Source of the DNA: Halorientalis sp. LT38
GTDB taxonomy: Archaea > Halobacteriota > Halobacteria > Halobacteriales > Haloarculaceae
DNA length: 64,000 nt
Direction: 5' to 3'
NCBI RefSeq assembly: GCF_037031225.1
Contig: NZ_JAYEZN010000001.1
Location: 1,426,001-1,490,000, forward strand
This document shows, one piece after another, positions 14,575 through 18,369 of the stretch (position 1 is its first letter; each line of letters begins with the position of its first letter). The notes below the pieces were generated by a model. That model was not told where the DNA came from. It did not search any database and saw only the letters and a program-made list of their open reading frames with translations. The translations under genes and the position numbers were made by a program.

Positions 14575-16401
14575 ATGGCAGACCTGTTGGTGTGGGTGCT
14601 CGCCGGAATCCTCCTGTACACACTGGTGATGATGGCGTTGCGGACCCGGGGGATGCTCCCCGAGTCCGTCCGCGTCTCGGGCCCGATCACCACCGTCCAC
14701 ACCCAACGCGGCCGGGCCTTCCTGAACTGGCTGGCGCGCCCGAAGCGATTCTGGCGCGCGTACGGCAACTTCGGCGTCGGCATCGCACTGGTCGTGATGG
14801 CCGCCATGCTTGTGGTCGTGCTCACGGCCGCGCTCGGCAGCGTCCTCTCGCCGGGGGCGACGCCCTCCGAGGTGCGCAACCCCCAGAACGTCCTGGTCAT
14901 CCCGGGCGTCAACGAGTTCCTCCCGCTCGCGGCCGCACCCGGGATCATCTTCGGGTTGCTCGTCGGCCTGGTCGTCCACGAGGGCGGCCACGGCCTGCTC
15001 TGCCGCGTCGAGGACATCGACATCGACTCGATGGGGCTCGCCTTCCTGGCCTTCATCCCCGTCGGTGCGTTCGTCGAACCCGACGAGGAGAGCCGCAACG
15101 AGGCCGACCGCGGCGCCCAGACGCGGATGTTCTCCGCGGGCGTCATGAACAACTTCGCGATCACCGTGCTCGCCTTCGCCCTCCTCTTCGGCCCGATCGT
15201 CGGCTCCATCGCCGTGGCCGACGGCGCGCCGGTCGGGCAGGCCATGCCCGGTTCGACCGCCGAGGACGCCGGCATCGAGCGGGGCGACCTCATCACGGCC
15301 GTCAACGGCACGGCCGTCGAGGATCCCGACGAGCTGGAGACGGTCCTCAGAGACACCTCCGGGCAGCGGGTCACGGTCGAACGCAACGACGGCGAGCGCG
15401 TCGAGGTGACCCGCTCGCCGACGATCACGGCCGCGATCCCGCAGGTGATCGCCGGCCGCGAGGGCGACGGCGGGATCAACTGGAGCGAGCGCAACCCGAC
15501 CGACGTCGAGGCGGTCAACGGCACCGCCGTCGGCACGGAACGGGAGTTCGAGAACGCCGTCGCGAACAACACGATGGCCCAGGTGGAGACCGACAACGGG
15601 ACCGCGACCTTCCCGACCGGGGTCTTCGTGATCCAGGTCATGGAAGACGGCCCGCTCGCGAACGCCAGCGCGCCGACCGATCGGTACCTGATCGTCACCG
15701 CCGTCGACGGCGAGCGCGTGATCGATCCCGAGACACTCGATCGAGCGCTCCGGAACGACGAGCCGAACACGACCGTCCCCATCGAGGCCTACGTCCTGCG
15801 GGACGGCGACTTCCACCCCGAGACCTACAACGTCACGCTCGACGCACACCCCAACCAGGAGGGCGGCTTCATCGGGGTCTCGCCCGCCCGCGGCGTGAGC
15901 GGCGTGGTGGTCAACGACTTCGGCATCCGGACCTACCCCGCCGAGGACTTCCTCGGCCTCCTCGAGGGCGACGCGAACGCCTTCGGCGGGCTGACCGGCG
16001 GCTCGCTGCTCGACAGGGTGTACATCGCGCTCATTCTGCCCTTCATCGGCGTCATCGTCCCCCAGATCGGCGACAACTTCGCCGGGTTCGTCCCCGAGAT
16101 CGCGAACTTCTACGAGGCGACCGGCCTGCTCTCCGGCCTGGGCGACGGCGTCCTGATCCTGGCGAACATGGCCTTCTGGACCGCGTGGGTCAACCTCCAG
16201 CTCGGCATGTTCAACCTCGTCCCCTCCTTCCCGCTCGATGGAGGTCACATCCTCCGCACGAGCTCAGAGGCGGTCATCTCCAGACTCCCGATCGAAGGGG
16301 GCCGCCGGCTGACGACGACGGTCACCGTCTCGATCAGCCTCCTGATGATCGCCGGCCTGTTCCTGATGATCTTCGGGCCCGGGCTGGTCGGCGGACTGTA
16401 G
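14575..16401 (+). CDS. Site-2 protease (M50) with PDZ domains
   Basis: A 608-residue membrane metalloprotease. An N-terminal helix is followed by a membrane segment with the zinc motif VHEGGHGLLCRVEDI (HExxH). Two PDZ-like regions lie outside: one begins PGSTAEDAGIERGDLITAVN (about residues 220-270), and a second, around residues 355-400, contains LIVTAVDGERVID. C-terminal membrane helices include FNLVPSFPLDGGHIL with the LDG zinc ligand. PDZ-containing site-2 proteases trim membrane-bound regulators after a first cleavage. It is the second M50 protease of this window and is much longer than the one at 7319-8425, which lacks a PDZ domain. Confidence 0.92.
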   Translation: MADLLVWVLAGILLYTLVMMALRTRGMLPESVRVSGPITTVHTQRGRAFLNWLARPKRFWRAYGNFGVGIALVVMAAMLVVVLTAALGSVLSPGATPSEVRNPQNVLVIPGVNEFLPLAAAPGIIFGLLVGLVVHEGGHGLLCRVEDIDIDSMGLAFLAFIPVGAFVEPDEESRNEADRGAQTRMFSAGVMNNFAITVLAFALLFGPIVGSIAVADGAPVGQAMPGSTAEDAGIERGDLITAVNGTAVEDPDELETVLRDTSGQRVTVERNDGERVEVTRSPTITAAIPQVIAGREGDGGINWSERNPTDVEAVNGTAVGTEREFENAVANNTMAQVETDNGTATFPTGVFVIQVMEDGPLANASAPTDRYLIVTAVDGERVIDPETLDRALRNDEPNTTVPIEAYVLRDGDFHPETYNVTLDAHPNQEGGFIGVSPARGVSGVVVNDFGIRTYPAEDFLGLLEGDANAFGGLTGGSLLDRVYIALILPFIGVIVPQIGDNFAGFVPEIANFYEATGLLSGLGDGVLILANMAFWTAWVNLQLGMFNLVPSFPLDGGHILRTSSEAVISRLPIEGGRRLTTTVTVSISLLMIAGLFLMIFGPGLVGGL

Positions 16402-16449: not shown

Positions 16450-18369
16450 ATGGATTCACGCGACCCGCCGCCGACGGAGGAAGGGTGGTACGCGCTGCAC
16501 GACTTCCGGACCATCGACTGGGACGCCTGGCGGGCGGCCCCCGAGCGCCGTCGCCGGCAGGCGATCGCGGAGGGCATCGACTACCTCCGCTCGCACGCCG
16601 CGCTGGAGGACGTCGAAGACCCCGGCAAGTTCGGCGGCGGCGCGACGGCCGTCTTCACCGTCGTCGGCCACAAGGCCGACCTCATGATCGTCCACCTGCG
16701 ACCCACCGTCGGCCACGTCGAGGCCGCCGAGCGCCGGTTCGAGCGGACCGCGCTGGCCGAGTTCACCGAGCAGCCGACCTCCTACCTCTCGGTGACGGAG
16801 GCTTCGGGTTACACCGAACGCGCCCGCGAGTACTTCGAGGGCGAGGTCGACGACGACTCCGGGCTGGCCCAGTACATCCAGCAGCGGCTGCACCCCGAGA
16901 TCCCCGACGACGACCACGTCTGTTTCTACCCGATGAGCAAGCGACGGGACCCCGAGCAGAACTGGTACGACCTGCCGTTCGACGAGCGGGCCGAACACAT
17001 GGCCCGCCACGGCGACATCGGGCGCGGGTACGGCGGCAAGGTGAACCAGATGATCGCCAGCAGCGTCGGCTTCGACGACTACGAGTGGGGGATCACGCTG
17101 TGGGCCGACGACCCGACCGACATCAAGGACCTCCTCAACGAGATGCGCTTCGACCCCTCCTCCTCGAAGTTCGCCGAGTTCGGTCCCTTCTACTTCGGGA
17201 AGCGCTTCCCGCCCGCGGACCTCGACGCGCTGCTGGCCGGCGAACCGGTCCCCAGTGAGGGTGAAGCCGGCGAACCGGCCGCTGCGGGAGGCCACGGCGA
17301 AGCCCCCGCCCACGGCCAGACCGACGGCGACGGACACCCGCCGGCGTCGGCCCGCGGTGACGACGAGAGCGAGGCAGACGACGGCGGTTCCTCCGGCGGC
17401 CGCCCCGACGTGGGCGACGTCGACCTCCCGGAGGACGACGAACTCGAGGGGAAACTGGCCAACCTCGGCCTGTTCCCCGGGCAGGACTACGACGAGGGGA
17501 CCTTCGGGCTGGTCTTCTACTCCGAGGCCGACGCCGCCGACCTCGCCGACGAGGTCGACGGCCTCCGGGGCAACTTCGACCACTACGACACGCACGTCCT
17601 GACCACGGTGCGGGCCAACGAGGGCCGGGCGGCCATCGCCAGCGTCTGGAAGACCGAGAGCGCCGCCGACACCGCCGCGGGCTTCCTGAACGACCTGGGA
17701 GGGATCGTCGAGGGCTATCGCGGCCCCCTCGGTGAACAGGACGAGAGCGACTCCGAGGACGCCGAAACCGAGAGCGCGAGCGACGACATCCGGGGCGAAC
17801 TCGAGGCCCAGAACATCTACGCCGGGCAGCCCCGCGGTGAGGACGTGTTCGCGCTGGTCCTCTACTCCGAGGCCGACCCCGAGACGCTGTTCGAGGAAGT
17901 CGACGGTCTCCGGGAGAGCTTCGACCACTACGACAGCCACGTGAAGACGGCCGTCTACGAAACTCGCAGCGAGGACGACGACCGCTCCGCTATCGTCAGC
18001 ATCTGGGAGACCGACGACGCCGCGGAGAAGGCCGCCGGCTTCCTCTCGGATCTCCCCGAGATCGTCGGCCGCGCCGGCGAGGGCGGCGGGTTCGGGACGA
18101 TGGGCATGTTCTACACCGTCGTGCCCGAGCACCGCGAGGACTTCACCGCGAAGTTCGACGAGGTCGGCGAGTTGCTCGCCGAGATGGAGGGCCACGACGA
18201 GACGAGCCTGCTGGTCAACCGCGAGGACGAGAACGACATGTTCATCGCCAGCCAGTGGCGCTCCCAGGACGACGCCCTCGACTTCTTCCGCTCCGAGGCG
18301 TTCTCCGAGACCGTCGCCTTCGGCCGCGAAGTGCTCGCCGACCGGCCGCGGCACGTCTTCCTGGCCTAG
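16450..18369 (+). CDS. HemQ (coproheme decarboxylase/Cld family) fused to repeats and an Abm domain
   Basis: A 639-residue fusion. Residues 1-260 are a chlorite-dismutase-family domain with PMSKRRDPEQNWY (161-173) and HGDIGRGYGGKVNQ (187-200), hallmarks of HemQ, the enzyme that decarboxylates coproheme to heme b. After an acidic Gly-rich linker come two similar blocks of about 95 residues, at 330-425 and 447-540, each with FYSEAD or LYSEAD, EVDGLR, FDHYD and AAGFL. Residues 545-639 form an antibiotic-monooxygenase-like (Abm) domain. Haloarchaeal Cld-Abm fusions (PitA) are known; the duplicated middle block is extra. A promoter-like spacing is not obvious, and the gene follows the protease by 48 bases. 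Confidence 0.9.
   Translation: MDSRDPPPTEEGWYALHDFRTIDWDAWRAAPERRRRQAIAEGIDYLRSHAALEDVEDPGKFGGGATAVFTVVGHKADLMIVHLRPTVGHVEAAERRFERTALAEFTEQPTSYLSVTEASGYTERAREYFEGEVDDDSGLAQYIQQRLHPEIPDDDHVCFYPMSKRRDPEQNWYDLPFDERAEHMARHGDIGRGYGGKVNQMIASSVGFDDYEWGITLWADDPTDIKDLLNEMRFDPSSSKFAEFGPFYFGKRFPPADLDALLAGEPVPSEGEAGEPAAAGGHGEAPAHGQTDGDGHPPASARGDDESEADDGGSSGGRPDVGDVDLPEDDELEGKLANLGLFPGQDYDEGTFGLVFYSEADAADLADEVDGLRGNFDHYDTHVLTTVRANEGRAAIASVWKTESAADTAAGFLNDLGGIVEGYRGPLGEQDESDSEDAETESASDDIRGELEAQNIYAGQPRGEDVFALVLYSEADPETLFEEVDGLRESFDHYDSHVKTAVYETRSEDDDRSAIVSIWETDDAAEKAAGFLSDLPEIVGRAGEGGGFGTMGMFYTVVPEHREDFTAKFDEVGELLAEMEGHDETSLLVNREDENDMFIASQWRSQDDALDFFRSEAFSETVAFGREVLADRPRHVFLA

Follow-up and report, generated by a model that had tools for sequence, protein, structure and literature searches.

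A repeated unit in the tail of long-form PitA from Halorientalis sp. LT38 and a probable two-unit reading of its protoheme-holding part

Haloferax volcanii PitA as the closest described system

The closest described system is PitA of Haloferax volcanii (HVO_1871). In the available part of the study (PMC5746218), this protein of 501 aa is reported to form an assembly of 774 kDa, modelled as two back-to-back pentamers of coproheme decarboxylase (ChdC) that make up a double ring. The gene is required for normal aerobic growth, and the mutant is rescued by protoheme. Whole PitA contained 0.83 protoheme per subunit; after proteinase K treatment, the ChdC part stayed multimeric and colourless, and Kosugi et al. 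recovered a monomeric fragment of 22 kDa, AGKPH(322)-501, that carries protoheme. In the published reading, the tail is a single ABM-like domain interrupted by an insert of 41 residues at positions 386-426, and Thr333, Val434 and His444 were taken as the counterparts of the Asn, Trp and His of IsdG. The authors speculated that the tail takes the heme at once, preventing peroxide damage (PMC5746218).

Here, we describe the PitA of Halorientalis sp. LT38, encoded in a stretch of 64,000 nucleotides, the whole of which is referred to as the window. The pitA gene corresponds to the open reading frame at 16450-18369 on the + strand (ATG at 16450, stop at 18367-18369) and encodes 639 aa. The layout of the protein, with unit borders taken from HMMs built on family members L001-L030, is a ChdC/HemQ domain (residues 1-262), a linker, block A (328-425), block B (444-544) and a terminal ABM unit (546-639).

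Identity, distribution and neighbourhood of long-form PitA

The ChdC/HemQ domain (16450..17235, +) was recognized by PF06778 (1.2e-62) and by phmmer comparison to solved ChdCs (7e-62). In the latter, the YPM-x-K and HG-x-x-GR motifs align with those of the solved proteins; we take the first to hold the catalytic Tyr and Lys and the second the proximal His of ChdC. The residues Y160, K164 and H187 have the same letters in the solved ChdCs 1t0t and 6fxj and do not vary among 19 family members. By orthology with H. volcanii, where the growth of the mutant and its rescue with protoheme support this activity, the domain would convert coproheme to protoheme. It is followed by the linker (residues 263-327; 17236..17430, +), whose sequence contains 3 His. 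The median number of linker His was 10 in 95 entries without block A and 3 in 59 entries with one A, counts that are uncorrected for kinship and double entries.

The window protein is an ordinary PitA, i.e., a haloarchaeal ChdC with a fused tail, in its long form, and the gene family is already known and named. The protein was 81% similar to that of H. regularis. Only ChdC (61-252) and ABM (553-622) exceeded the Pfam cut-offs, leaving blocks A and B without annotation; a TraF_2 match below the cut-off (E 0.005, whole protein) was put down to chance. As far as the literature was searched, three points are new here: the additional unit, where it occurs, and the interpretation of the heme-holding part as two units. 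No description of the two blocks was found in the available parts of the papers covered, among them PMC5746218, PMC5992828, PMC8305020 and PMC4835899, the founding PitA paper (Bab-Dinitz 2006) lying outside this coverage. The initial annotation had held that known Cld-Abm fusions are shorter, which is correct for H. volcanii PitA with its 501 aa (PMC5746218) and incorrect for the family, since the NCBIfam model NF007124 has 637 positions and spans residues 1-639 of the window protein (1021.7 bits, compared to a curated cut-off of 446).

We found pitA in 113 of 116 genomes of the window's family, including 81 of 81 good ones. Across the class, sampled at a completeness of 90% or more, NF007124 exceeded its cut-off in 291 of 292 genomes; G128 was the only one without a PitA match, and searching it with just the ChdC domain gave no hit. 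The named loci are the best 80 of 580 confirmed matches, and this sample is therefore tilted to the window's relatives. It comprises 38 loci with ChdC-A-B-ABM, 39 with ChdC-B-ABM, two with ChdC-A-A'-B-ABM (L081 and L090) and one in which a contig end cuts within A; the long form, which has A, is present in 40 of these best 80 of 580. A less biased sample consisted of one genome per genus of the window's order (78 genomes, 77 with a match, 79 open reading frames), sorted into eleven family groups (f1 to f11) of an order that has further families. B and ABM occurred together in 77 of the 79 reading frames (56 B-ABM and 21 A-B-ABM) and are the near-universal core of the PitA tail. The A-B-ABM tail was seen in f1 (13/14), f7 (3/3), f9 (2/2), f10 (2/3) and f8 (1/2), and the tail without A in f2 (6/6), f3 (23/23), f4 (22/22), f5 (1/1), f6 (2/2), f8 (1/2) and f11 (1/1). 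The odd f1 reading frame reflects a broken frame on a MAG contig, the other frame of which carries A, B and ABM, and seven f1 genera outside the genus sample (L006, L007, L010, L018, L019, L020 and L028) all have A, B and ABM (7/7). An artefact or one-off oddity was ruled out, since numerous genomes from several families have the long form, some of them titled complete genome. The initial annotation had regarded the long form as unusual and proposed a survey of its phylogenetic spread; A proved to be present in 5 of 11 family groups and 21 of 79 genus-sample reading frames, which, together with the full-length NCBIfam model, makes the long form a regular one. One f10 genome carries, in addition, a divergent second PitA that is 451 aa long (L195, G220:C1:2323240-2325700), with ChdC and one partial B-like unit; an ABM unit was not found in it.

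Upstream of pitA, separated by 48 bp, lies a Peptidase_M50 gene with a PDZ domain (14575-16401, +). In 55 of the 80 named loci (L039-L118, best 80 of 580), from several families, a relative lies no more than 3 kb from pitA, and it was upstream on the same strand in 53 of these 55. In some genomes, such as G005, the genome search located the M50 gene far from pitA. A functional link between a membrane protease and heme synthesis is possible. Among 16 loci examined, a PadR-type regulator gene (Pfam) was observed between M50 and pitA, divergent from pitA, in two (L077:2331-2915, -; L087:2345-2869, -), and minus-strand reading frames similar to it were seen in L080, L082 and L088.

Origin, fold and signature residues of the tail units

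Two look-alike blocks between HemQ and Abm had been noted in the initial annotation, and our comparisons bear this out. Block A (17431..17724, +) and block B (17779..18081, +) were 52% identical by BLASTP (44/84 columns, E 8e-28), and all four motifs that had been quoted (Y-S-E-A-D, E-V-D-G-L-R, F-D-H-Y-D and A-A-G-F-L) are present in both. The A-B score of 228 was reached by 0 of 2000 shuffles of B, the maximum among which was 66, and profile comparison of A with B gave a probability of 100%. Over 62 long-form entries, in which some species are counted in both samples, A-B identity had a median of 45%, the window ranking 11th. The origin of A was investigated in three unit trees, all of 101 columns. 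In the 90-unit tree, which leaves out eight loci whose units mostly had long branches as well as alternate B units from forms without A, the A units minus that of L074 formed one side of a branch with a support of 98.7. A and long-form B as a single clade were not rejected (p-AU 0.854), and the tree constrained in this way had a higher likelihood than the unconstrained one. Judged by these sequence comparisons, block A is the product of a duplication of B, an extra copy (BLASTP, HMMs, AlphaFold2) of what is a near-universal PitA unit (BLASTP, HMMs, census, AlphaFold2).

The A of L074, from a Natrialbaceae MAG, was 67% identical to its own B, at the top of the 62 long-form entries. It was placed next to this B in the 90-unit tree with a support of 87, which is not decisive, and beside it again in the 123-unit tree; the 132-unit tree placed it with the other A units. 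As the trees disagree, it is perhaps an independent second duplication. A search for a free-standing B-type unit in 148 genomes of the phylum was negative: 24 matched at E <= 0.1, 23 of them within the window's order, and the sole match outside the order had an E of 0.02 over 53 positions. By sequence, the best hit of the B-type unit among solved structures was unrelated (E 0.59).

It had further been suggested that the protein might hold three tandem ferredoxin-like units. The AlphaFold2 model of residues 322-639 (318 residues, 63 sequences, mean pLDDT 87, pTM 0.63) agrees with this, predicting b-a-b-b-a-b three times, in A, B and ABM, and the model of the L081 tail, with its four units, predicts it four times (32 sequences, pLDDT 83, pTM 0.51). 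Three ferredoxin-like units in the tail are therefore well supported as a modelled fold. The terminal unit (18085..18366, +) was recognized by PF03992 (E 1.5e-11 for the whole protein; 44.7 bits, compared to a gathering threshold of 23.1), with residues 553-622 as the best stretch. PF03992 did not exceed its threshold in A or B of the window, and it matched only 1 of 14 B units (E 0.13). On the models, VIA-align superposed ABM on LsrG 3qmq_A with a Z of 15.6 and an rmsd of 1.4 over 93 residues, other ABM proteins reaching a Z of about 15. The alignments to HmoB 3tvz_A (103 aligned) and TRAP 4ae5_B (117 and 123 aligned) each covered ABM and only part of B, and the terminal unit generally took up the VIA-align results, A and B being hardly covered. 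By E-value, the top Foldseek matches of both models were ABM-type chains of about 200-360 residues, with room for at least two units; two-unit-length chains were matched over about 170-365 columns, but with an rmsd of 10-20 Å. A packing of B and ABM as one barrel was sought on the models by Foldseek and VIA-align and was not demonstrated by them. Siroheme decarboxylase was not among the 50 structure matches listed per list, an absence that is no evidence against likeness.

The sequence likeness of A and B to ABM was weak, with hhalign probabilities of 20% and 12%, respectively, and with 2/2000 and 23/2000 shuffles reaching the observed score. Compared with this likeness, a shared His/Trp signature is the better link between the two blocks and ABM. 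The first residue of strand b2 is His382 in A (17593..17595, +; model position 61; 100% of 61 A units), His497 in B (17938..17940, +; model position 176; 100% of 152 B units) and His582 in ABM (18193..18195, +; 100% of 149 ABM units). The last residue of strand b3 is likewise a Trp in the model and in 100% of the same units, namely Trp400 in A (17647..17649, +), Trp519 in B (18004..18006, +) and Trp603 in ABM (18256..18258, +). Both assignments held in 7/7 units of the window and L081 AlphaFold2 models.

The presence of His382 and Trp400 in 61/61 A units speaks in favour of A as a full extra heme site, with long forms binding two or more protohemes per subunit, and the related barrel of siroheme decarboxylase has its axial His on strand b2, according to the available text (PMC4835899). 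We nevertheless regard such a site as unlikely. The loop YAGxPxGED of B (residues 457-465; 17818..17844, +), conserved at 93-99% per named position and modelled with a pLDDT below 50 at residues 458-462, is absent from A, as is Tyr503, found in 100% of B units; moreover, the H. volcanii tail, with two His-bearing units, holds about one heme (0.83 per subunit, PMC5746218). Conservation also bears on whether A is just a functionless spacer, left behind neutrally when a unit was duplicated. A is absent in 6 of 11 family groups and has 16 positions conserved at 95% or more, compared to 28 in B, as such a leftover might; however, these 16 residues hold over 61 A units, F376, H382, S398, W400, A406 and L413 at 100%, and a spacer would have no need of them, which makes this reading very unlikely.

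The protoheme-holding part and the role of block A

The landmarks published for H. volcanii PitA were mapped onto the window protein through L110, the Haloferax massiliensis orthologue, rather than H. volcanii PitA itself; at an offset of 5, L110 has T, V and H at the positions of Thr333, Val434 and His444. By this mapping, fragment 322-501 starts in the B loop, YAGxPxGED thus being the place of the published proteinase K site, and runs to the C-terminus, so that it comprises B and ABM. Thr333 sits close to where B begins, and the 386-426 insert straddles the border between B and ABM. The counterpart of Val434 is V572 of the window protein, which the model places in helix 1 of ABM; that of His444 is H582, on strand 2 of the same unit. 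Profile alignment of ABM with the heme-degrading 8avh, in which strand 1 is outside the aligned region, put the 8avh Trp on W603 and its His on Val622. We take the latter to be the proximal His, as in IsdG. The IsdG-type Trp at the end of strand 3 is present in 149/149 ABM units, and the IsdG-type proximal His on helix 2 is absent from the ABM unit, where Val occupies the position in 97% of 149 units. Because of the landmark mapping and the alignment of W603 and V622, we infer that the published alignment fuses halves of two units. The protoheme-holding "ABM-like domain" is thus probably B plus ABM rather than one ABM domain with an insert. The initial annotation had proposed that the blocks may handle heme; for B, this gains indirect support from the correspondence of the protoheme fragment to B and ABM. 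Its alternative, that the blocks bind a partner, drew no finding in either direction.

We consider it fairly probable that PitA is a ChdC with a protoheme-holding row of ABM-type units, in which A is a duplicate of B with a supporting role. The ChdC domain would make protoheme from coproheme under air, and the tail would be a row of ABM-type ferredoxin-like units, of which the B and ABM core would take over protoheme from ChdC and store it, as the authors themselves proposed for that part. B and ABM are the likely heme store, since they correspond to the H. volcanii fragment that is monomeric and keeps protoheme after proteolysis, and by orthology the tail of the window protein would hold protoheme as well. 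A would be an added unit, serving either in weak heme buffering or in pairing with another A. These two roles are the most likely ones on the sequence comparisons, and a full second heme site is not, since neither the YAGxPxGED loop nor Tyr503 is present in A, which kept the fold, His and Trp of B.

A purely structural version, in which A is a pairing unit, for example, A with A across two back-to-back ChdC pentamers, is possible but tentative. ABM-type units usually work in pairs, and with two units in the core tail and three in the long tail, A is the odd one; it kept its core while being without B's loop and Tyr503, and two records (L081 and L090) have an even tail, A-A'-B-ABM. The 774-kDa size and double-ring model of H. 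volcanii PitA (PMC5746218) and the way barrels of the superfamily arise, from two units that dimerize or are fused (available text of PMC4835899), would fit such pairing. However, H. volcanii builds its large assembly without any A, and 38 loci have three units versus 2 with four (best 80 of 580), so that even numbers are not clearly favoured. A broader proposal appears distinctly unlikely, namely that haloarchaea adjust the number of units in a heme-storage tail, in which ABM and between one and three B-type units, all sharing the strand-2 His and the strand-3 Trp, would make up a string of heme-holding units. If true, protoheme would pass directly from the ChdC ring and be shielded from the enzyme's peroxide, and long-form subunits would hold more heme, liganded from strand 2 in the manner of siroheme decarboxylase and not from helix 2, as in IsdG.

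Under the preferred reading, a row of ABM-type units with B and ABM as the heme store, the probable domain layout of this heme-synthesis enzyme, present in 291 of 292 class genomes sampled, is corrected, its product-heme part probably being two units. A third unit is present in half of the named loci (best 80 of 580) and in about a quarter of the genus sample. The two-unit plan makes fragment and mutant tests simple to design and reveals no new system.

To our knowledge, HmoB of Bacillus subtilis is not fused to ChdC, and its PDB chains of 147-155 residues are in line with this. Like the PitA tail, HmoB has tandem ferredoxin-like units in one chain, and it gave a partial structural match to B-ABM. 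Its C-terminal unit binds heme through an axial His on a helix (available text of PMC4835899), the PitA ABM unit having Val622 instead, and the packing of the HmoB pair is not reproduced in the PitA model. NF007124 (PRK09565.1, "heme-binding protein") matches the window protein over its full length, but its name and table row are silent on repeated blocks, unlike the unit layout found here. H. volcanii PitA, judged from its close relative L110, resembles the window protein in having ChdC followed by C-terminal B and ABM and differs in having no block A and a His-rich linker. Our reading keeps the heme-acceptance proposal made for H. volcanii PitA and alters only the anatomy.
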